Virus record (IMG/VR): IMGVR_UViG_3300037285_000205
Location: 1 to 24,204 of that record
DNA: 24,204 nucleotides
Origin: a virus
Reading direction: 5' to 3' (one strand)
How positions within the stretch are numbered: the first letter of the stretch is position 1; every line of letters begins with the position of its first letter. Made by a program: the position numbers and the translations under genes. The notes beneath the pieces are model-generated. The model did no database searches. It was not told the origin of the DNA and saw nothing but the letters and a program-made list of their open reading frames with translations. This document shows positions 4,796-14,763 of the stretch, piece after piece.

Positions 4796-4824
4796 TTGAC
4801 AAAGCATAGTGTCTCACTTATATT
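4796..4824 (+). promoter_or_regulatory. Strong sigma70-like early promoter
   Basis: TTGACA at 4796-4801, 17-base spacer, TATATT at 4819-4824: consensus -35 and 5/6 -10. It faces the 4845 gene and sits in the gap divergent from gp4, so host RNA polymerase can drive this island early. Confidence 0.8.
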
Positions 4825-5989: not shown

Positions 5990-6595
5990 TTAAGTTGCTG
6001 TTGACAGGTCAGGTCCAGCAACACCATCGCTAAGTGAGTCAGCATCACCGCCATCAACTGTGTGCGCTGCATTGTCAAACTTAATGGTTACTGAAATTGT
6101 TTGGAATTCACCACCAGATGCATAGTTGGATTCATTATATGTCAAGTTTGAAATATAACAACCACTTAATACCCATGTGTCAAGAATTTGCGGATCAGGA
6201 TTGCCACCATTGAGGTTTTGAATCTCCACTTGAAACTTATAGCTGATTCCGGCTTTTGGTGAACTTTGTGTAGCCATGTCTATCTGCTTGGCCACTTGTG
6301 AGTCTAACTTACGGCTGGTTTGTGAATCAATATCATCACGCAACTCAATGGTAATAGGTTCCCATGTGTGCTTACCAGCAAGATAAATCTTACTGTTGTA
6401 TGTGTCCACTACCACTTCATCGTGTGACATGTTTGGACGTTGTACGCTAATCACGTTGTGTGTTACTTGGTCCAAGTCAGCACCATCGCCCATATTTGTG
6501 AAGTTTACACGGAAACGATAGCTTAGTTTGGGCATCAATGTGCCTCGGCTCTCCCCTGTGTTTAACGGTACGCTTAATTTATCTAGAACTGCCAT
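5990..6595 (-). CDS. 19: Tail tube protein, gp19-like
   Basis: Forms the inner tube of the contractile tail. The 201-residue product starts MAVLDKLSVPLNTGESRGTL. It has SYRFRVNFTNMG at about residues 24-35, a strand HNVISVQRPNMSHDEVVV, the conserved HTWEPITIELRDDI at about 75-88, and a C-terminal WVLSGCYISNLTYNESNYASGGEFQTISVTIKFDNA, as in T4-like gp19. It is somewhat longer than T4 gp19 (163 residues). The ATG at 6595 is chosen over an upstream in-frame ATG at 6661 because GGAG lies 8 bases before it and because a late promoter octamer at 6628-6635 would truncate the longer form. Next to the sheath gene it is separated by an early island and an endonuclease gene. Confidence 0.88.
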   Translation of the reverse strand: MAVLDKLSVPLNTGESRGTLMPKLSYRFRVNFTNMGDGADLDQVTHNVISVQRPNMSHDEVVVDTYNSKIYLAGKHTWEPITIELRDDIDSQTSRKLDSQVAKQIDMATQSSPKAGISYKFQVEIQNLNGGNPDPQILDTWVLSGCYISNLTYNESNYASGGEFQTISVTIKFDNAAHTVDGGDADSLSDGVAGPDLSTAT

Positions 6596-6627: not shown

Positions 6628-6635
6628 TATTTATT
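6628..6635 (-). promoter_or_regulatory. T4-type late promoter octamer for gp19 (AATAAATA)
   Basis: The minus strand reads AATAAATACTT, 7/8 to TATAAATA, 32 bases before the gp19 ATG and upstream of its GGAG site. The identical AATAAATACT string precedes the sheath gene gp18, which supports a genuine shared late signal. Confidence 0.7.
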
Positions 6636-6654: not shown

Positions 6655-6681
6655 TTGACATTATTTAGCCCATAGTATACA
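6655..6681 (+). promoter_or_regulatory. Sigma70-like early promoter of the 6712 island
   Basis: TTGACA at 6655-6660 followed by TATACA at 6676-6681 (15-base spacer) or TACAGT at 6678-6683 (17-base spacer). The downstream leader contains GCAAAAAAGGAATA, shared with the early genes starting at 13441 and 13899. Confidence 0.65.
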
Positions 6682-6711
6682 GTCTAAGAGTAGGCAAAAA
6701 AGGAATACATG

Positions 6712-6918
6712 ATGAGCCGTCCATTGCCAGAACACACAGTAGCAAATTTGTTTTATGCTTGGCGCACCCATTTTGGGGTTGAATGTCATCGTGAAGACAA
6801 CGACTCAACAGAAACTGAATTGTCGTTGGCTACACAGTTTGTTGCGCAGCATGAATATTTGGATTTATTTCCAGAAGAAGTTGCTGGCAGATATTACCAA
6901 TACAACCAACACAACTAA
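6712..6918 (+). CDS. Unknown small early protein, 68 residues
   Basis: No family recognised. The product MSRPLPEHTVANLFYAWRTH... is acidic and helical-looking, with LFYAWRTHFG near the N-terminus and EYLDLFPEEVAGRYYQY near the end. Two adjacent ATGs exist (6709, 6712). The second is taken because its distance from the AAGGAATA leader matches that in the two other genes with the same leader. It is the first gene of a short plus-strand island lying between gp19 and the endonuclease and opposite in direction to the structural genes, so it is probably transcribed early by host polymerase. Confidence 0.75.
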   Translation: MSRPLPEHTVANLFYAWRTHFGVECHREDNDSTETELSLATQFVAQHEYLDLFPEEVAGRYYQYNQHN

Positions 6919-6946
6919 ATAAAACAACTCCTTGAAAGGACACACT

Positions 6947-7090
6947 ATGTTTAACCCAATTATGTTCACCCTGAATGTTGTCTTTGTATGCGCGATGATG
7001 ACATTTTTGCCATCAATTGCATTTGCACTAGCAAATTCATTCTCAGGGTCCCGACACTTGTTCCATTACCCTTTTCAGAGCATTTCCTAA
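6947..7090 (+). CDS. Very small hydrophobic peptide gene, 47 residues (possible membrane or secreted peptide)
   Basis: The ORF begins MFNPIMFTLN and runs through an uncharged hydrophobic stretch (residues 5-29, ending SIAFALA) before a polar, slightly basic C-terminus. That looks like either a single transmembrane helix or a signal peptide with an AFALA-type cleavage site at about residue 29. A good ribosome site (AAAGGA, 6 bases upstream) and position 28 bases after the preceding early gene support translation. No homologue is recognised. Small early phage membrane peptides often act on host envelope or superinfection, but nothing here shows that for this one. Confidence 0.6.
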   Translation: MFNPIMFTLNVVFVCAMMTFLPSIAFALANSFSGSRHLFHYPFQSIS

Positions 7091-7106
7091 TGCATTTTGC
7101 AATTAG

Positions 7107-7268
7107 ATGAGAGTTCATAAAATACGATTCAGAACCCATAATTTGTGGTACGGGAATGTACGAGTGATGAAACGATTTATGAAACAAGAGCACAATGCCG
7201 TCATGAAATTAATATCACGGGATGACGGATATCGAACATACAAGGTCATTTGGCCAACATCTATCTAA
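7107..7268 (+). CDS. Possible very small basic protein, 53 residues
   Basis: Open frame MRVHKIRFRTHNLWYGNVRV..., strongly basic in the first half, ending DDGYRTYKVIWPTSI. It starts 16 bases after the hydrophobic peptide gene and is on the same strand and presumed transcript. No clear Shine-Dalgarno precedes the ATG at 7107; a second in-frame ATG at 7167 would give 33 residues. The amino-acid composition (balanced, with aromatic residues and few rare codons) looks protein-like, but the frame is short enough to be chance. Function unknown. Confidence 0.35.
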   Translation: MRVHKIRFRTHNLWYGNVRVMKRFMKQEHNAVMKLISRDDGYRTYKVIWPTSI

Positions 7269-7479
7269 CTACTGTGAAACCCGATAGACTATCATGAACA
7301 AGCCGAATAATAATATTTGATAGAGTCCGGGCTTTCCTAATAGCGATGTAAACGACACTGATTAGACCGTTAGGGAAAGTATTTAGATTGGTTGTGGATA
7401 CTGCGTTGACACAGATGTATTTTTGAGTCGTAGCAATACCTGTGGTGTGGATTAAACGCATTCTAGCAGTACAGACTAG
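7269..7479 (+). other. About 210 bases without a convincing gene before the terminator
   Basis: Plus-strand frames are rich in stops. The minus strand has one 75-codon open frame that begins at a GTG inside the terminator hairpin and looks spurious. I see no tRNA cloverleaf or T-arm motif. Since it lies between small genes and a strong terminator, it would be the 3' part of the plus transcript, so an untranslated or small-RNA role is possible, as is decayed sequence. Confidence 0.4.
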
Positions 7480-7501
7480 AAAAGGCACCTAGGTGCCTTT
7501 T
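7480..7501. terminator. Bidirectional intrinsic terminator
   Basis: Perfect inverted repeat with 9-base arms AAAAGGCAC / GTGCCTTTT around a CTAG loop. The A run on one side and T run on the other let it work on both strands. It lies between the ends of the convergent plus-strand early island and the minus-strand EDxHD endonuclease gene (6 bases past that gene's stop). Confidence 0.85.
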
Positions 7502-7507
7502 CATTTC

Positions 7508-9145
7508 TTATGCATTCCATACATATTTCATATTTCCACAATCCCATATTCTATTCCATCCTTCTTGTCGACGTAACTGAGATTCTGATATATTAGGGTC
7601 ATCGTTAGCTGTTTTGCGTAAATTGAAGCGATGCAATCGTTTTGTCCCGTTCACATACCAATAATTCAATCCTGTGAATTTTTCATCAGCGAATCCAATT
7701 TGTGTGTATACATTACCTGTATTCCAACGTAGATCACTATATGTCACAACTTGCTCTGGATTGTATAATTTCACAAAATATGAAAACAACTTACTGGCTG
7801 CACCAGGAATTTGATGATCTGCTGCCAAACAAAATCTTGACAATTCCCAATTTTTATGTCGCTTTGTGATATTCCCTTTGGTGAATGTCATAACTGCGAC
7901 AAGTATACCATTATGTGTTAGGCCTAGCTGTACACTGGCATTCATGTAACCTTGAATATGATGTGTCTCGACAAATTCTTTTGCATTAGCAGGGGCCAAC
8001 TCAACAAGCTGACATTTTCTTGCCCCTATTCTGTTACTATTTTTATTCAAGTGCAATTTAGTCATTAACCGATCTTTAACAATCTGTGACTTATGAATCC
8101 ATTCATCTTCAAAGATTGTTATCAATTTTATATTTTGTTCTTGACATCGCTTCATTTTATTAAAGTGGTATTTCTTGTCTAGTCGAGTATCGTTGTGCCA
8201 ATATAATCCACAATACTCAATAGCGATACCAAGCTCAGGTAACACTATGTCCAACTCATAAGGGGCAATAATAGTCCTGTCATTTTCTATTATTTTACCA
8301 TTGTATTGGTATGTTAACCAACGGTGGATTTCTTTTTCTGCTGCTGACCCTTTGCCATTTGTTCCTGCACACGACCCACACGGCGTTTGAAAATTTCGTA
8401 GTCTGTATTTAAACGTCTCTGATGGGATTGATTCATCTTTTTGACATTGCCTACAATGTATTTCTATTCTATTGTTTGGATTATCATATGAAGACAGTAA
8501 TGAAATATCGGGCGGAGAAATATTGATAATGTCAATTGCTGGCCCACATACTGAATTTAACTTACCAAGTTGATTAATTTTTGACTTTACTGCCCACGCA
8601 TCACTTCGATAATAGTTATCAACACCGTATGTTTGCAGCATTGTAGCTTTGATTTTGTCACTATGGCCTTCAAGTTGGCCTGCGTTTTCAACCCCATATC
8701 GCTCACGTAATGTTTTTCTACCTTTTGAATTAAATTCAGATGATCTAGATCTGGCGGCATCTTTAGTTTTCATGCTGACTTTGCTGCCATATTTTTCAAT
8801 GTTGGTGTTGATTCTCTTCTCTTGCATACTGTCTACATGTGCTGGGTTTGAAACGCCATATCTTGCCGTAAGTGACTCGCGCATTTTTTGAAAACTGTCA
8901 ATACCATTGTCTTTCTTTAACTGTTCTCTGCATTTACGACTGCAAGTCACCTTATTTCGTGCTGGCATGTTGTCACACACTTTACATTTTGGCGTAGGTG
9001 AGTCATTTAATAATAAATGACATTGATAGGCGAAATCTAATGTAGGATACAACATATCAAGGAAGTCGCGGTGGGCTTCCGTTAAATTGCGTTTTCTTGA
9101 GTTTTTTGGAACTGTTTCCAGTATTTCTTTAATAATATGTTTCAT
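7508..9145 (-). CDS. EDxHD (VSR-like) homing endonuclease with zinc-binding Cys pairs
   Basis: 545-residue free-standing homing endonuclease. N-terminal Cys pairs (C54/C57 and C68/C72) look like a zinc ribbon. Several YGV-type repeats (RYGVSNPAH at about 95, RYGVENAGQ at about 149, TYGVDNYYR at about 172) are typical of DNA-binding modules in this family. A second Cys set lies at C231/C234 and C256/C259. The nuclease core at about 268-350 reads AAEKEIHRWL, YELDIVLPELGIAIEYCGLYWHN, H327, and KLITIFEDEW, matching the PD-(D/E)xK-derived VSR/EDxHD fold. A C-terminal domain (about 365-545) follows. No Shine-Dalgarno precedes the ATG at 9145; instead GATAAATA ends 5 bases before it. It sits between the sheath and tube genes, a common type of site for such elements. 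Confidence 0.9.
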   Translation of the reverse strand: MKHIIKEILETVPKNSRKRNLTEAHRDFLDMLYPTLDFAYQCHLLLNDSPTPKCKVCDNMPARNKVTCSRKCREQLKKDNGIDSFQKMRESLTARYGVSNPAHVDSMQEKRINTNIEKYGSKVSMKTKDAARSRSSEFNSKGRKTLRERYGVENAGQLEGHSDKIKATMLQTYGVDNYYRSDAWAVKSKINQLGKLNSVCGPAIDIINISPPDISLLSSYDNPNNRIEIHCRQCQKDESIPSETFKYRLRNFQTPCGSCAGTNGKGSAAEKEIHRWLTYQYNGKIIENDRTIIAPYELDIVLPELGIAIEYCGLYWHNDTRLDKKYHFNKMKRCQEQNIKLITIFEDEWIHKSQIVKDRLMTKLHLNKNSNRIGARKCQLVELAPANAKEFVETHHIQGYMNASVQLGLTHNGILVAVMTFTKGNITKRHKNWELSRFCLAADHQIPGAASKLFSYFVKLYNPEQVVTYSDLRWNTGNVYTQIGFADEKFTGLNYWYVNGTKRLHRFNLRKTANDDPNISESQLRRQEGWNRIWDCGNMKYVWNA

Positions 9146-9150
9146 GCGTA

Positions 9151-9158
9151 TATTTATC
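9151..9158 (-). promoter_or_regulatory. T4-type late promoter octamer abutting the endonuclease start (GATAAATA)
   Basis: The minus strand reads GATAAATA, then TACGC, then the ATG at 9145. With the usual T4 late spacing the start point would fall on or next to the A of the ATG, giving a leaderless mRNA. GATAAATATAC is also the sequence of the late promoter before the 14702 gene. Confidence 0.65.
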
Positions 9159-9185
9159 GCTTACGACTGCAAAGTTGTTATAGGG

Positions 9186-9220
9186 GTAAACAAAGGCGGC
9201 GGTCCGCCGCCTTTGTTTAC
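9186..9220 (-). terminator. Strong GC-rich hairpin terminator after gp18
   Basis: Inverted repeat with perfect 17-base arms (GTAAACAAAGGCGGCGG and its complement) around one central base, with the T-rich side of the stem (TTTGTTT) at the 3' end. It begins 4 bases after the sheath stop codon. Being symmetrical it could act on either strand. Confidence 0.85.
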
Positions 9221-9228
9221 TATTTATA
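9221..9228 (-). promoter_or_regulatory. Perfect late promoter octamer overlapping the gp18 stop
   Basis: The minus strand reads TATAAATAGTA. It overlaps the gp18 stop codon and leads straight into the terminator hairpin at 9186-9220, so a transcript starting here would begin inside that hairpin. It may be a real promoter for the endonuclease or a chance match. Confidence 0.4.
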
Positions 9229-11692
9229 GTGCGCCTGTGTTGACGATACGAATCGGAATGTAGATAAATTCCACACTCTTTGTTGGAGCAATAGCAATGT
9301 CAATGTACAATTCATTACGGTCAATCCTGATTGGCGTGTTATTGCTTGCATCACAAACAACAGCAAAGTCAGTCAAGGCGCGCTTGGCTAATAAATCACT
9401 TAGGAAGTTGTTGAACAACAATACAGCACGATCACGTGTGGGCTTGTCATTTTGTTCAAACAACAATGGACGTGCAATTTCGTCAAAACGTTCACGCAAA
9501 AATGCAACCAAACGAGCTACGTTAACACGATCCAATGCACTCGATGTTGCATGCAGCGTCTTCTGACCAAAGATAACCACACCTTCTGTCGGGAAGTTGG
9601 CAATTGGATTCAGCTTGTTCAAGTATGCGGCATCACGTTGGCCTTGGCTAAGTGAAACAGCTTTAAACTCTTCTTCTGCTGTAATGTAACCAACTGCGGA
9701 TCCGTTTTGGACCACACCACGTGTTAGACCTGCTGGTGCAAACCATGGGTAGCTGATGTTATCACTGTACGCATATGAGTAAAGTACCATATGACTTGCT
9801 GGGACGGTAACTGTTGCGCCTGCTGGTGTTGTTGAGCGACCACTTGGGTAATAAACTGCTGAGTACGTATTCTTTGTAACCAATCCGTCATCACCATTTT
9901 CAGTTGCGCCTACACCAAGAACCCAGTTTGTAGCTTCAGTAGGTGTTTTGCGCATTGGTGTGTCAATGATAATAAACCCAGTTTCGCCACGGTCACTGTT
10001 GAGTGTAACTAATTCGTCTGTTAGCTCTGGGAAGTTAGGAGCACACAACAAAGTAAAGTTACGGTTTGGATCACGTAGATCATCGTTGCCTGCCACTGCG
10101 GCCTGCATTTTTGTAGCAACATAACGACGCTGAGCCAAACGACCAAACGCTCCGCTACCATCAGCATTGTTGACTACTGCGTTGACCCATGCATCAACTG
10201 TGCCTGCACCGCTGTTGATCAAGATATCTTCAGTCCATATACGCAATGTGCCTTGGCTGAATGCCATGTTTACTGCCAGCATATCACTAGGGTAAAGCAA
10301 TGCGTCTGGGCGACCATCAAAAGCTGTTGAGTTTGTGTCAACATCGCCGCTAACCAAAGTTGCACGGTCATCTGCTAGGAAGTCACCAAATAAAACACCA
10401 CGATCAGTTGTTTGATCAGTGTTATCATGTAACAACCATGCGGTGCCATTCCAACGGTAAATTGCTGGGTAAGCTGCTTCAACTGCGTCAGTTTTGACCC
10501 AAATGTCACTAGTTGTTAGTGCGTTGCCTGCTTTGTCAAGTGTTGGTGTTTTAACACTGTACTGGATGTCTGCGTCTGCAACACGTTCCCATACTGCACC
10601 AATTTTACGTAGAACATCAAGCTCAGTCTTTGTACCATCAAACCATAGTTGGCCAACAGTGGTTGGACCAGTTGGTGCTGCATCTTGTGCAGCAACCACA
10701 ACTTCGATTGATGCAACTGCACCTGCAGCGATAGTTGTAATTTCTACACCTGCGGTTGTTACTGCCAATACGTTGAGTGCTATGTTGGTGTTTGTCATTG
10801 TAGTTGTGATTGTAGCGGCTGAACTACCATCTTGTGCAACGTAGTTTCCAGCTGAGTTCTTAACACCTTCAACTGTAATCAGATCAAATACGCCATTTGC
10901 ATCAGCACGGTAAGCAACAATGTTGATACCTGCGCCTGGCTGTGTTGTTTTGATCCATACGTCGCCTGTAGCCGGTGATGCTGGTTGATTATAGTGTGGT
11001 GCAAAGGTATACGATTGTGTCTGTGCTGTTTCAGTTGCATCATCAAGTGCTGCCCATGCGCCGCCGACGCCGACAAAATACCCTAATGCCACACCAGTTG
11101 GGGATGCATTGTCATTTAATACTGCTACCAAATAGCTACCATTAACCACTGTGGCTGATGGTGCATATGTGCTGGGATCAGCAACTTCGCTTGCGTCCGC
11201 GTCAAGTTTAACTTCAACAGTTACAGACTGTGATACCCAAGCTGAACCGCTCCATTGGTGTAAACCATATGCACTGCCATCAGTGTCTAACCAGATTGTG
11301 TTGGCTGCAACTGGACCAGTTGGTGCAACGTCAGTTGCAATAAGTTCTGCCAAATCAACGTCAGCACGAACAACGTATGCCTGTGCGCCTTGACCCAAAT
11401 AACTATATGCAGCAAGTAAACCATATTCGCTAGTTTCTGCACCTTGTGCAACTGCAAATTTTGGATCACCAAAGAACTGTGTCAATTCACGCTGTGATGT
11501 TACTGGAATTACTTGACCTGATGTTGCAGATTTTGTAAATTTTGCGATGCCATCAGACTCAGTGCCTGTGGGATCAGTTTTGTCTTGTGCGGTTGCAACA
11601 ATGATAAGTGGGATGGTGCCAGCGCCTGGGCTGGCATAAGCGCTTTCATCTGTGATTGATACGTCAACGCCTGGTGATACTAGTATAGCCAT
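9224..11692 (-). CDS. 18: Tail sheath protein, gp18-like, with a large repeat insertion
   Basis: Contractile sheath subunit. The 822-residue product begins with the canonical MAILVSPGVDVSITD. It has the first sheath domain up to about residue 115 (SYLGQGAQAYVVRADVDLAEL) and, from about 430, the second half, including VLLFNNFLSDLLAKRALTDF and the diagnostic C-terminal VVCDASNNTPIRIDRNELYIDIAIAPTKSVEFIYIPI. Between them lie about 300 extra residues containing roughly five short modules of the type P-x-GD-x-W-[IFL]-x-T...Y-x-W-N-GTAW (near 124-153, 182-213, 237-269, 340-369 and 385-419). T4 gp18 is 659 residues, so this is a longer sheath with surface decoration domains. AGGAG lies 8 bases before the ATG and AATAAATACT lies further upstream. 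Confidence 0.95.
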   Translation of the reverse strand: MAILVSPGVDVSITDESAYASPGAGTIPLIIVATAQDKTDPTGTESDGIAKFTKSATSGQVIPVTSQRELTQFFGDPKFAVAQGAETSEYGLLAAYSYLGQGAQAYVVRADVDLAELIATDVAPTGPVAANTIWLDTDGSAYGLHQWSGSAWVSQSVTVEVKLDADASEVADPSTYAPSATVVNGSYLVAVLNDNASPTGVALGYFVGVGGAWAALDDATETAQTQSYTFAPHYNQPASPATGDVWIKTTQPGAGINIVAYRADANGVFDLITVEGVKNSAGNYVAQDGSSAATITTTMTNTNIALNVLAVTTAGVEITTIAAGAVASIEVVVAAQDAAPTGPTTVGQLWFDGTKTELDVLRKIGAVWERVADADIQYSVKTPTLDKAGNALTTSDIWVKTDAVEAAYPAIYRWNGTAWLLHDNTDQTTDRGVLFGDFLADDRATLVSGDVDTNSTAFDGRPDALLYPSDMLAVNMAFSQGTLRIWTEDILINSGAGTVDAWVNAVVNNADGSGAFGRLAQRRYVATKMQAAVAGNDDLRDPNRNFTLLCAPNFPELTDELVTLNSDRGETGFIIIDTPMRKTPTEATNWVLGVGATENGDDGLVTKNTYSAVYYPSGRSTTPAGATVTVPASHMVLYSYAYSDNISYPWFAPAGLTRGVVQNGSAVGYITAEEEFKAVSLSQGQRDAAYLNKLNPIANFPTEGVVIFGQKTLHATSSALDRVNVARLVAFLRERFDEIARPLLFEQNDKPTRDRAVLLFNNFLSDLLAKRALTDFAVVCDASNNTPIRIDRNELYIDIAIAPTKSVEFIYIPIRIVNTGAL

Positions 11693-11733
11693 TAAATATT
11701 CTCCTATTAAAACATATGGTCTTGCTCTAATAG

Positions 11734-11741
11734 TATTTATT
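11734..11741 (-). promoter_or_regulatory. T4-type late promoter octamer for gp18 (AATAAATA)
   Basis: The minus strand reads AATAAATACTA, 41 bases before the sheath ATG. It is the same string as before gp19 and separates the late sheath gene from the early dNMP kinase gene upstream. Confidence 0.7.
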
Positions 11742-11784
11742 CGCTAACTAGTTATCAGGGGCGGTTACGGACCTAACTACGTAC

Positions 11785-12411
11785 TTAACCAGTAATCGCT
11801 GAATGAATAGCCGTTGTAAGTGATTTCAAATCACTGTCATTGTGGATAGTTTTTTCATATTCAGTGGGATAATCCAACCAACGCCATTCACTTTGATGTA
11901 TTTCAGGATATTCATCCATCCATGATGTATCGTAGCGATTATCATTGATTGCTTTGTTTATCCATTCAGGCTCGGGTCCACGCTTTACACGCCACACTTC
12001 TCCGCCTAATCCACGAAGCATAGTGCCTTCATTGTAGAATCTTACATCAGGAATTACAAAATTTGTATCTGGATTCTCCACTAGCTTTCGCTTTACTGAC
12101 AATACCCATACTTCTTGATCAAAACCGGTGCGCATGCAATCCGTTCCAAATAACTGTAATACACTGCGCGGTGTAATATCACGGCCCAATTCAGTTGTCC
12201 AAAACTCGTCAGGAGTTTCACGCCACTCACGACTGATTTTTGTGTCACCTTCCAGCATTGGTCGATCCCATCCGAAAACAGCAGACACACCATCTTTTAG
12301 ATTGTCTGCAAAGCTCATTTTCATATAACCATAGTCTTCAACAAGAGTGTCGCTGACTGTGCCTTTTCCACAACCAATAAAGCCGCAGATGCCAATAATT
12401 TTTCTCTTCAT
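11785..12411 (-). CDS. 1: Deoxynucleoside monophosphate kinase, gp1-like
   Basis: Phosphorylates dNMPs to dNDPs to supply phage DNA synthesis. The 208-residue protein opens with a P-loop (IIGICGFIGCGKGTVSD, residues 4-20). It has an acceptor-site region MSFADNLKDGVSAVFGWDR, then RSVLQLFGTDCMRTGFDQEVWV and a Walker-B-like FVIPDVRFYNE strand, ending in a helical tail. These features fit the T4 gp1 family of P-loop dNMP kinases. The start at 12411 (MKRKIIG) is preferred because GGAGA lies just upstream; the in-frame ATG at 12423 overlaps that ribosome site. A sigma70-like promoter directly precedes the gene, and it is the last gene of an early minus-strand island next to the sheath gene. Confidence 0.88.
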   Translation of the reverse strand: MKRKIIGICGFIGCGKGTVSDTLVEDYGYMKMSFADNLKDGVSAVFGWDRPMLEGDTKISREWRETPDEFWTTELGRDITPRSVLQLFGTDCMRTGFDQEVWVLSVKRKLVENPDTNFVIPDVRFYNEGTMLRGLGGEVWRVKRGPEPEWINKAINDNRYDTSWMDEYPEIHQSEWRWLDYPTEYEKTIHNDSDLKSLTTAIHSAITG

Positions 12412-12434
12412 TATATTCTCCATGTATAACTGTT

Positions 12435-12463
12435 AGTATAACACAAAAAGTTAATAAAATCAA
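12435..12463 (-). promoter_or_regulatory. Sigma70-like promoter of the dNMP kinase gene
   Basis: Minus-strand TTGATT (12463-12458), 17-base spacer, TATACT (12440-12435), 23 bases before the kinase ATG. The -10 is 5/6 and the -35 is 4/6 to consensus. Confidence 0.65.
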
Positions 12464-12467
12464 GAAG

Positions 12468-12710
12468 TTATGTGAGGTCAGATTCTAGCTTTTGCAGGGC
12501 AGCTTGGTTGATTTGTGTTGTGATGTCCACAATCATTTGATCCAGTGCTGCTTCTGTGTGCTCCAGAATATTTTCAGTGAGGGCACAATATACCAGCTTA
12601 CCAGTTTCGCTCAATTGCCCGTATTGATCAAGCAAATACCACTTGGTATAATCTTGTAATAATAAAATGGCTTCGACGCGCTTGTCTGCTAACTTTCGGC
12701 TATCACTCAT
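12468..12710 (-). CDS. Unknown small early protein, 80 residues
   Basis: No family recognised. MSDSRKLADKRVEAILLLQD... is predicted mostly helical (VEAILLLQDYTKWYLLDQYG, LVYCALTENILEHTEAALDQMIVDIT, a Gln/Leu-rich tail), so a small helical bundle is likely. A GTG six bases earlier could also initiate, but the ATG at 12710 has AAAGG 8 bases upstream. The start is interlocked with the end of the upstream 51-residue gene (ATGAGTGA), indicating coupled translation. It sits just before the kinase promoter. Confidence 0.75.
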   Translation of the reverse strand: MSDSRKLADKRVEAILLLQDYTKWYLLDQYGQLSETGKLVYCALTENILEHTEAALDQMIVDITTQINQAALQKLESDLT

Positions 12711-12858
12711 TGTCACGGCCTTTGTGCTTACGCTTACGAGGGATGACTACCTCACGCTTGTTGGGGATGGTCTTGGGGCGGAATGGTCCATTGGGGTCAC
12801 GGATAATCATCGCCGCATAGTTGCGTGGCTTGGGCAGTTGGGGGCGATTTTTAGCCAT
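12703..12858 (-). CDS. Small basic protein, 51 residues, unknown
   Basis: The reading frame begins MAKNRPQLPKPRNYAAMIIR and ends in a Lys/Arg-rich tail (VIPRKRKHKGRDNE). The high proline and basic content suggests nucleic-acid binding or a ribosome- or polymerase-associated peptide, but no family is recognised. Support comes from the ribosome site (AAGGA, 9 bases before the ATG), from filling a 140-base gap between two co-directional genes, and from an 8-base overlap with the next gene. Confidence 0.7.
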   Translation of the reverse strand: MAKNRPQLPKPRNYAAMIIRDPNGPFRPKTIPNKREVVIPRKRKHKGRDNE

Positions 12859-12860
12859 TG

Positions 12861-13094
12861 TTACAGTCCTTCAGAGAGTTTTTTCATCATAGCATTATCA
12901 AGCTTGGATGTCAACGAATCATGTATGTATTGCAACCGCTTGTGGTTGTATGAAAATTTGATAGTTTTGATCAATGTGTTGCGGTCGCGGCGGAATGCCC
13001 TGATGTCCCACTTTTCCAATTCCACCAGCAACGCCAGCGATTCTTTACGCTGGGCTGCTACAGTAATGGAGTCTGTCCATTTATTATCAGGCAT
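12861..13094 (-). CDS. Unknown small early protein, 77 residues
   Basis: No family recognised. MPDNKWTDSITVAAQRKESL... is helical and basic (LELEKWD-like LLVELEKWDIRAFRRDRNTLIKTIKF, then NHKRLQYIHDSLTSKLDNAMMKKL). The ATG overlaps the preceding stop as TAATG, so translation is likely coupled; an alternative TTG start 15 bases upstream is less attractive. Part of the early minus-strand island that ends in dNMP kinase. Confidence 0.75.
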   Translation of the reverse strand: MPDNKWTDSITVAAQRKESLALLVELEKWDIRAFRRDRNTLIKTIKFSYNHKRLQYIHDSLTSKLDNAMMKKLSEGL

Positions 13095-13441
13095 TATGCA
13101 CCCGTCCAATCTGTGTTGTATACACCAGTGATTATGTTGCCGCGGGCAAAGTTGCGCGCTGGGGCGCTCCAGCCGGCAGCTTTTAGGATTGTTCCTTTTG
13201 GGAATTTTGCATCGGTGTCAACGTTGACAACAAAGCCCCAAACCCCACCCTGAGCACCTGTAATTTTGATGTACTTTTTACCCACAGTGTATGCAATGCC
13301 CTCAATAAATTCTTCAATCATTGTTTGGCGGTGGGCGGCGCGTTGCTCTGTAGCTGCTGGGCGGGCAGTGCTGTAACCTACATAGTTGTTACAAATGTTT
13401 GCTACCAGCATGTCGATTTCGTTTTGCATTGTGTGTGTCAT
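13094..13441 (-). CDS. Conserved small phage protein, 115 residues, unknown function
   Basis: No named function. After an N-terminal helix the protein reads YTVGKKYIKITGAQGGVWGFVVNVDTDAKFPKGTILKAAGWSAPARNFARGNI (about residues 51-103). The pattern 'GKKYIKI...VWGFV...G-x-I-x-KAA-x-W-x-APA-x-ARGNI' recurs in small early proteins of many T4-like and marine phages, suggesting a compact beta domain. It has its own sigma70-like promoter and the GCAAAAAAGGAATA leader with AAGGA as ribosome site, so early expression is likely. Confidence 0.8.
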   Translation of the reverse strand: MTHTMQNEIDMLVANICNNYVGYSTARPAATEQRAAHRQTMIEEFIEGIAYTVGKKYIKITGAQGGVWGFVVNVDTDAKFPKGTILKAAGWSAPARNFARGNIITGVYNTDWTGA

Positions 13442-13469
13442 GTTGTATTCCTTTTTTGCTTACTTGTTA

Positions 13470-13498
13470 TGTATAGCATCTAGACCAGGTACTGTCAA
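13470..13498 (-). promoter_or_regulatory. Consensus sigma70-like early promoter of the 13441 gene
   Basis: Minus-strand TTGACA (13498-13493), 17-base spacer, TATACA (13475-13470). The -10 region (GATGCTATACATAA) and the leader GCAAAAAAGGAATA are nearly identical to the promoter at 13928-13956. Confidence 0.85.
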
Positions 13499-13512
13499 CA
13501 AATGATTACCAA

Positions 13513-13899
13513 TTATTCTGCACAATAAATCCGGACCAAAAGCGCGTTTGCCGCGGTGGGCAAAATTTCGAGACCCAGTTCGGCCAACGGTGTTTTGAGA
13601 CGGCGATCTTTTTCTGCGAAGCTGACCTTGGGCCAAACATGGTTGGAGATTTTGATCACAGTGAATGGCTTGCCACGGTTGCCGCGGCTGTTTTCATATA
13701 CGTCTGCAATTTTAAAGTACCCGTCGATAATGGCGCGGGCCGCATCAACTTTTGTATTGTGGGCCGGTGCTTCAAATTGGTCGCTGTATTGTTCGGCGGC
13801 GGCTGCACTACGGATTGTCACATCAATTGCTGCGAAGCGGGCGTTTGCGCCCATTTTACGGGAATTTACAAGCTTGTCATCTTTTACTACAGGTGTCAT
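13513..13899 (-). CDS. Unknown early protein, 128 residues
   Basis: No family recognised. MTPVVKDDKLVNSRKMGANA... is basic and alpha/beta, with an Ala-rich helix (FAAIDVTIRSAAAAEQYSDQF), a KPFTVIKISNHVWPKVSFAEKDRRLKTPLAELGLEIL segment and a short C-terminal strand. The ATG at 13899 has AAGGA in the shared early leader. An upstream in-frame ATG at 13956 would overlap the promoter and is rejected. It is the first gene of the early island leading to dNMP kinase and carries its own promoter, distinct from that of the following 13441 gene. Confidence 0.78.
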   Translation of the reverse strand: MTPVVKDDKLVNSRKMGANARFAAIDVTIRSAAAAEQYSDQFEAPAHNTKVDAARAIIDGYFKIADVYENSRGNRGKPFTVIKISNHVWPKVSFAEKDRRLKTPLAELGLEILPTAANALLVRIYCAE

Positions 13900-13927
13900 T
13901 TTATATTCCTTTTTTGCTTTCATATTA

Positions 13928-13956
13928 TGTATAGCATCAAGGAGTGAGGATGTCAA
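13928..13956 (-). promoter_or_regulatory. Consensus sigma70-like early promoter of the 13899 gene
   Basis: Minus-strand TTGACA (13956-13951), 17-base spacer, TATACA (13933-13928). The -35 overlaps the stop codon of the late neck-type gene upstream, so the promoter begins as that gene ends. It shares GATGCTATACATAA with the 13441 promoter. Confidence 0.85.
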
Positions 13957-14739: not shown

Positions 14740-14747
14740 GATAAATA
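14740..14747 (+). promoter_or_regulatory. Late promoter octamer, plus arm of a bidirectional pair (GATAAATA)
   Basis: The plus strand reads GATAAATACTGG, 16 bases before the 14764 ATG. It would drive the operon 14764 - gp14 - gp15 - Nudix. With the minus octamer it makes a 24-base divergent late-promoter element. Confidence 0.7.
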
Positions 14748-14763
14748 CTGGAAAGGAAGTTAC

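Follow-up and report, generated by a model that had tools for sequence, protein, structure and literature searches.

What does it mean that three small genes in one virus fragment begin behind the same short leader? The question is raised by IMG/VR record IMGVR_UViG_3300037285_000205, whose 24,204 bases, a fragment of a genome, were analysed in full and are called the window here; the genes start at 6712 (plus strand, +), 13441 and 13899 (minus strand, -), and the promoters before them are referred to as P1, P2 and P3. The observation is confirmed and its first-pass interpretation partly supported: promoter and leader together probably form an old, lineage-wide early module (the cassette), whose copies are alike within genomes and behind which some of the genes have been exchanged.

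Three copies of the cassette in the window

The leader element GCAAAAAAGGAATA occurs exactly at 6694-6707 (+), 13446-13459 (-) and 13904-13917 (-) and nowhere else in the window, against a mean of 0.00 and a maximum of 0 in 100 dinucleotide shuffles, and each exact copy stands downstream of a sigma70-type promoter. For P2 (13470-13498, -) and P3 (13928-13956, -) this is an exact TTGACA-N17-TATACA, with hexamers at 13493-13498 and 13470-13475, and at 13951-13956 and 13928-13933, respectively, that scores 36.4 and 34.0 bits with a position weight matrix (PWM); the -35 hexamer of P3 overlaps the TGA stop (13953-13955) of the neck gene. As regards TGn, both carry TGC-TATACA, and both contain GATGCTATACATAA, which is exact at these two promoters and only there, as the first-pass annotation of this DNA had reported. 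The same annotation had placed TTGACA, a TATACA box and a common leader before all three genes. TTGACA and the leader hold throughout, but at P1 (6655-6683, +) the TATACA at 6676-6681 leaves a spacer of 15 nucleotides (nt) behind the TTGACA at 6655-6660, and it is TACAGT at 6678-6683 that best fits the P2/P3 geometry, with 17 nt between the hexamers and 6 nt from the -10 to G[TA]ARGC. P1, which is without TGn, scores 25.6 bits and is matched at E 2e-7 by the model R1 described below. Its leader GTAGGCAAAAAAGGAATA, with ribosome site (6690-6707, +), lies at the expected transcript start; the leaders of P2 and P3 are GTAAGCAAAAAAGGAATA (13446-13463, -) and GAAAGCAAAAAAGGAATA (13904-13921, -). 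Pairwise identity over 57 positions is 43/57 for P2/P3, 37/57 for P1/P2 and 32/57 for P1/P3. A related sigma70-type promoter, TTGACA-N17-TATATT at 4796-4824 (+), has no leader and had been overlooked in the first pass; for its conservation, nothing obvious was seen by eye in 12 relatives.

The three genes are indeed unrelated: a comparison of the P2 and P3 proteins did not show them to be paralogues, and no two of the three proteins match each other by blastp at E≤0.01. P1 is followed by a small open reading frame (ORF) of 68-69 amino acids (aa) at 6709-6918 (+), with its start at ATG 6709 or 6712, no family match and no homologue in the loci searched, and by a second ORF for a small hydrophobic protein at 6947-7090 (+), whose family recurs in the P1 islands of relatives. 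A terminator-like hairpin at 7479-7502 (+) would close this unit; the roughly 370 bases at 7107-7478 (+), between the P1 genes and the hairpin, hold no convincing gene and no Rfam match. Behind P2 lies a 115-aa gene (13094-13441, -), kept at the same place in relatives and weakly matching phrog_5014, and behind P3 a 128-aa gene (13513-13899, -) with homologues in L008 and L063/L064 (same island) and at G026:52499 (elsewhere). Among the hairpins listed, none makes a convincing minus-strand terminator for the P2 and P3 units.

A promoter-leader family in relatives

The same design recurs upstream of orthologues of the 13441 gene. In relatives the family layout is TTGACA-N17-TATAnn-N6-GTAAGCAA-AGGAG-ATG, which spans about 55 bp and is matched 2 to 14 times in a record of 90-170 kb, and across 17 aligned sites TTGAC, TA.A and the G.A.G of the GTAAGC block are mostly invariant. 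A model of 16 sites (R1), searched over 25 records at E≤1, matched 22 of them, several weakly (G018 10, G005 8, G011 6, G007 5, G004 4, G015 2, window 3), and at E≤0.01 it matched all ten further records, which had been chosen from a pattern scan (G025 14, G026 13, G034 10, G029 8, G028 5, G027 4, G030 3, G031 3, G033 2, G032 1). A fixed-geometry PWM gave no match of ≥12 bits in three Markov copies of 645 kb. The first-pass expectation that other members would be easy to find is thus borne out by R1, PWM and pattern scans alike. The core pattern was found in at least 120 stretches of viral_contigs, of which 80 were kept, some of them lacking a ribosome site and reflecting chance or some other thing, and in genome_contigs 36 times, 20 of these in Streptococcus. 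In six named jumbo phages the best E was 0.017 over 2.3 Mb, and we take the motif to be absent there.

Leader and promoter go together. In ten records examined, GTAAGCA-N0-8-AGGA/GGAG occurs 26 times; for 20 of these sites the distance from the first base of an upstream hexamer (TTGACA, TTGACT, TTGACG or TAGACA) is exactly 35 nt, and the remaining six look like coding sequence. With the hexamers 17 nt apart and another 6 nt between the -10 and GTAAGC, that block would begin where a transcript is expected to start. The exact 14-mer GCAAAAAAGGAATA is found in one relative, L010 (at 7688). The window's leader variant with an upstream TATACA, tried as a pattern, gave two matches in viral_contigs; because both fall within unrelated coding sequence, the exact variant appears to be lineage-specific. 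With the 128-aa window protein as query, viral_contigs yielded no relative, though other searches found some, and short queries can fail there.

Three observations stand beside the family. Contigs L192, L221, L240 and L256 carry TATATT-N6-GTAAGCAAGAAAAGCT-like repeats without a ribosome site, a different repeated promoter or RNA leader. At G034:18594-20268 and 33551-34830 there are arrays of successive small genes with a cassette each, at intervals of about 335 to 725 bases. The cassettes at G018:89554 and G018:92218 (L118) directly follow what appear, by eye, to be tRNA 3' ends.

Most copies in relatives contain, between -35 and -10, a 16-bp near-palindromic block, ACCAARRCRYNTTGCT. When allowed to slide, this block reaches 14.8 bits over 110 non-redundant sites, compared with 9.1 for the best fixed placement and 3.9-4.1 for five within-spacer shuffles; it lies at offsets -1, 0, 1, 2 and 3 in 11, 37, 47, 14 and 1 sites, and since one genome has several offsets (G018: 0, 1 and 2) it is not locked to polymerase contacts. 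The block is near-palindromic about its middle, which was the best of 16 centres tried, and the copy at G005:92041 holds a perfect 18-bp palindrome. The arm-matching test is moderate, with the total reached by 58 of 5000 shuffles and single outer pairs by 0, 7, 34 and 96 of 5000. In most relatives the sliding block is probably an operator. The window's three copies have lost or replaced it: the block score is -14.1 at P1, -7.8 at P2 and -0.4 at P3, against a random 99th percentile of 3.1, and 7.7 bits at the 4796 promoter. Because the window copies have the leader without the block, and the 4796 promoter the block without the leader, the two elements are separable. A model of TTGCT and AGCAA as a single dyad was also considered and was rejected, as the distance between the arms varies.

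The tail sheath of the virus is 36-43% identical, among the matches listed, to those of jumbo phages such as PA5oct, CBB, K64-1 and Atu_ph07 and 45-83% identical to those of IMG/VR contigs L006-L039. The window further encodes a terminase, a head-tail adaptor (neck) and a dNMP kinase; megablast against named phages gave no match, and neither an Rfam family nor a tRNA was found in it.

Positions, timing and likeness of the copies

The cassettes stand among genes with a different upstream signal. ATAAATA precedes, at a distance of up to 90 nt, the sheath gene in 11/13 relatives, the tube gene in 12/13 and the neck gene in 8/9, compared with 0/47 cassette genes; for other genes the counts are 0/13 (g5380), 0/10 (P2 gene), 0/12 (dNMP kinase), 0/6 (terminase) and 4/8 (g15402). 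In the window this late-type motif occurs as AATAAATA at 6628-6635 (-), where it stands back to back with P1 ahead of the tube gene (5990-6595), as AATAAATA at 11734-11741 (-) before the tail sheath gene (9224-11692) and as GATAAATACT, read from the sequence, at 14740-14749 (+) before a plus-strand ORF at about 14764. Judged by these upstream signals, the cassette genes would be early. In G018 the gene behind one cassette encodes a P-loop protein of phrog_1250, a family without assigned function, and a weaker promoter match, which has no leader, is located 116 nt ahead of a gene for a single-strand DNA binding protein.

Many relatives share the window's cassette positions. A promoter in the P1 position, 60-64 bp from the tube gene and on the opposite strand, was found in 12 loci (60 bp for P1 itself), of which about nine are independent, as the promoters of L014, L016 and L027 are identical to those of L023, L017 and L012. 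A P3-like promoter stands close behind the neck stop codon in at least five relatives (L007, L008, L010, L011 and L012), and in degenerate form in G020, the record to which L064 belongs, and a P2 promoter fronts the homologous gene in 12/12 non-redundant loci, all of which had been picked for having a homologue of the 13441 gene. The one named phage with a homologue of this protein (38%) is Pelagibacter phage Mosig (MT647606.1:91007-91369), in which the upstream region has no GTAAGC leader.

The P2 gene apart, the genes behind these promoters are less constant. Among the 12 first ORFs at P1 only three blastp pairs were found (L011-L019, L012-L019 and L023-L028), and the small hydrophobic protein family of the P1 island (window, L008, L009, L011, L018, L019 and L022) comes either first or after another gene. 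Four gene families, including that of the window's 13899 gene, stand behind the cassette at other places in other phages. The neck-island gene at G018:8660 has a counterpart of 78% identity at G005:141042, preceded there by a TTGACT promoter of the same layout; the gene at G005:161730 and the one that opens the neck island of L008 share 49% identity; the P1 gene of L018 and the gene at G005:92041 match at 39%; and, in a comparison among cassette genes only, the window's 13899 gene is 40% identical to the one at G026:52499, in a record without a neck match. L008 has an additional cassette and gene ahead of its 13899 homologue. Between neck and dNMP kinase, such genes are missing from PA5oct (none, with a 4-nt gap), CBB (one ORF) and K64-1 (a homing endonuclease). 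That genes behind the cassette are the most variable, a point which the first pass had put up for checking, applies at P1 and P3 and fails at P2, where the same gene occupies all 12 loci. The idea of a mobile or copied cassette that lets small genes land between structural operons survives in part: the unit is repeated, genes are frequently swapped and the cassettes head small genes among those with the late motif, but a recent landing of the window copies is not supported, as many relatives share their positions.

Two copies from one genome resemble each other more than copies that share a position in different genomes. Mean identity is 0.735 for different positions within a genome (82 pairs), 0.684 for the same position in other genomes (137) and 0.673 for other pairs (859); none of 2000 permutations reached 0.735, nor the 0.722 of the 57 within-genome pairs that join different islands. 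These values come from 47 sites, with L007 and L010 pooled as one group and near-duplicate viruses and several weak sites excluded; an earlier version of the comparison gave 0.738, 0.683 and 0.672. The spacer alone gives 0.683 within a genome and 0.601 at the same position between genomes. Four other records (40 sites, their weaker matches excluded) show a small effect in the same direction, 0.794 within and 0.772 between, with 0/3000 permutations. At L063 7324/7781 and L008 2723/3341, near-identical stretches of about 40 to 50 bp precede unrelated genes, and leaders are genome-specific, with GCAAAAAAGGAATA three times in the window and GTTGGAAAAGGA three times in L008. Most simply, recombination between copies would keep them alike within a genome.

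As a judgement on the explanation as a whole, we consider it quite probable that a clade of large uncultured T4-like myoviruses uses the cassette as its standard early module of promoter and start, with copies kept alike and genes exchanged. On phage entry, host sigma70 polymerase would read the cassette, and with GTAAGCAA at the transcript start the mRNAs would have a 5' end and a ribosome site that hardly vary. Multiple copies in each genome would drive small genes in islands among the ATAAATA structural operons; recombination between them would keep them uniform, and through the repeats the genes next to the promoter could be gained, lost or swapped with their expression signals intact, the relocation of genes being observed and its route presumed. 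A phage factor might act through the spacer operator on the whole set, e.g. in early shut-off. More tentatively, though as a possibility to be taken seriously, the cassettes may constitute a clade-wide early regulon of fixed leader, position-tolerant palindromic operator and phage regulator, in which copies serve as recombination docks for small, possibly host-directed genes, and whose operator the window lineage would have escaped, with a new version homogenised.

Chance resemblance among A-rich ribosome sites could be entertained in that GCAAAAAAGGAATA at ≤3 mismatches is not unusual (7 in the window against 4.4 expected, with 15 of 100 shuffles reaching 7), but the exact copies and their conservation across relatives leave it virtually no probability, and the relatives refute it. 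Plain vertical inheritance, with ordinary strong sigma70 promoters under selection and no exchange, would attribute the likeness to functional constraint; it sits well with the conserved positions and P2 gene and with the fact that -35, -10 and ribosome sites are constrained anyway, yet we think it quite unlikely given that copies resemble their genome-mates more than their positional counterparts, in the spacer alone and across islands too, and that leaders are genome-specific. True mobile units, in which cassette and gene travel as a module between islands and genomes, would explain the pair at G018:8660 and G005:141042, both behind a cassette, the 13899 homologue at G026:52499 and the additional cassette and gene in L008. 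The window positions are, however, common to relatives, no integrase was seen among the window genes, and recombination between resident cassettes gives the same outcome, so that movement of whole units seems rather unlikely. Distinctly improbable is a reading of the leader as an operator half-site, with the TTGCTTA of the spacer and the TAAGCAA that follows the start forming one inverted pair for a MotA-like or other factor. L028 has the perfect pair CTTTGCTTA-N11-TAAGCAAAG and other copies a shorter one, and TTTGCTTA looks like the MotA box of T4, (a/t)(a/t)(a/t)TGCTTtA, as given in an excerpt of PMC2988021, but the left arm is variable (TTACT) and shifts against a fixed GTAAGCAA, the T4 box in that excerpt takes the place of the -35 at 12+/-1 bp from the -10, and a search for a MotA homologue (PF09158, MotCF) found none in 11 records, some of them possibly fragments.

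Several points weigh against the explanation that we prefer, an exchangeable early module with a phage-controlled operator. The palindrome is imperfect: pair 1/14 is mostly C-C, inner pairs are without covariation, and the arm total, as given above, was matched by some shuffles. The regulator search brought no record over the cut-off, neither for HTH_3 (0/14) nor for MotCF or RHH_1 (each 0/11). The permutation tests leave some relatedness among sites, which were moreover selected by the motif itself with fixed geometry. No P1 promoter was found at the said distance from the tube gene in L006, L010, L011, L015 and L020, and the relocated genes fit movement with their own cassette and capture by a resident cassette alike. 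Early timing and transcript start are inferred, and the copy count for this virus covers the 24,204 bases of a fragment.

Comparison with known systems and adjacent features

The promoter early stem-loop (PeSL) cassettes described by Arbiol (2010) and Comeau (2014) are reportedly linked to shuffling of small genes. In the excerpted source PMC4503421 they appear as repeated early promoters in plastic regions of T4-type phages, and T4 PeSL cassettes are the closest known system to the one described here, from which the present motif differs by its leader and spacer block. Common to both are repeated sigma70-type early promoters (predicted as such from sequence in our case) in multiple copies that flank variable small genes, the P2 gene excepted. 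Unlike in PeSL, a stem-loop within 100 nt upstream is found in 7/60 sites (control 48/4000) and at 0/3 window copies, and the cassette has a leader of fixed GTAAGCAA and ribosome site, to which relatives add the spacer block. Recombination between copies is suggested here only indirectly, by the likeness within genomes. Because the stem-loop is mostly missing, we regard the cassette as PeSL-like in part and do not class it as PeSL.

Phage morons are small, separately transcribed genes between structural genes. The genes behind the cassette resemble them in size and place and in being absent there from PA5oct, CBB and K64-1; unlike morons, many of them share one promoter module and several are old and conserved. 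With T4 early promoters, as far as the excerpt of PMC2988021 describes them, the cassette has in common a strong sigma70-type -35/-10 and, at P2 and P3, TGn, and it differs in its constant start-site leader and sliding spacer block, neither of which that excerpt mentions for T4. With the T4 middle promoters of the same excerpt (PMC2988021) it shares TTTGCTTA-like letters only, for a -35 is present and TTGCT adjoins or overlaps the -10, in place of a MotA box 12+/-1 bp away. The T5 N25-type promoters of PMC12464699, with their influential initial transcribed sequence, are similar in that promoter escape can depend on the bases transcribed first, a likeness by description and not by sequence. 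A literature search with the motif letters returned unrelated papers only, and in a search of limited depth no published description of the motif was recognised.

TTGACA-N17-TATATT-N6-GTAAGCAA offers a simple handle on the early, fast-changing genes of a large group of uncultured phages, among which counter-defence genes may be sought. The cassettes also provide a many-copy case for studying how promoters can stay uniform in phages that swap the genes under their control, and the spacer block points to an early phage regulator as a candidate.

Between the sheath and tube genes the window further encodes a 545-aa protein (7508-9145, -) with a DUF7487 and a weak CapR match, relatives of which (27-61% identity) lie at varied places in other records, like a homing endonuclease. 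A GC-rich 37-base hairpin at 9185-9221, between this gene and the sheath gene, is usable as a two-way terminator.

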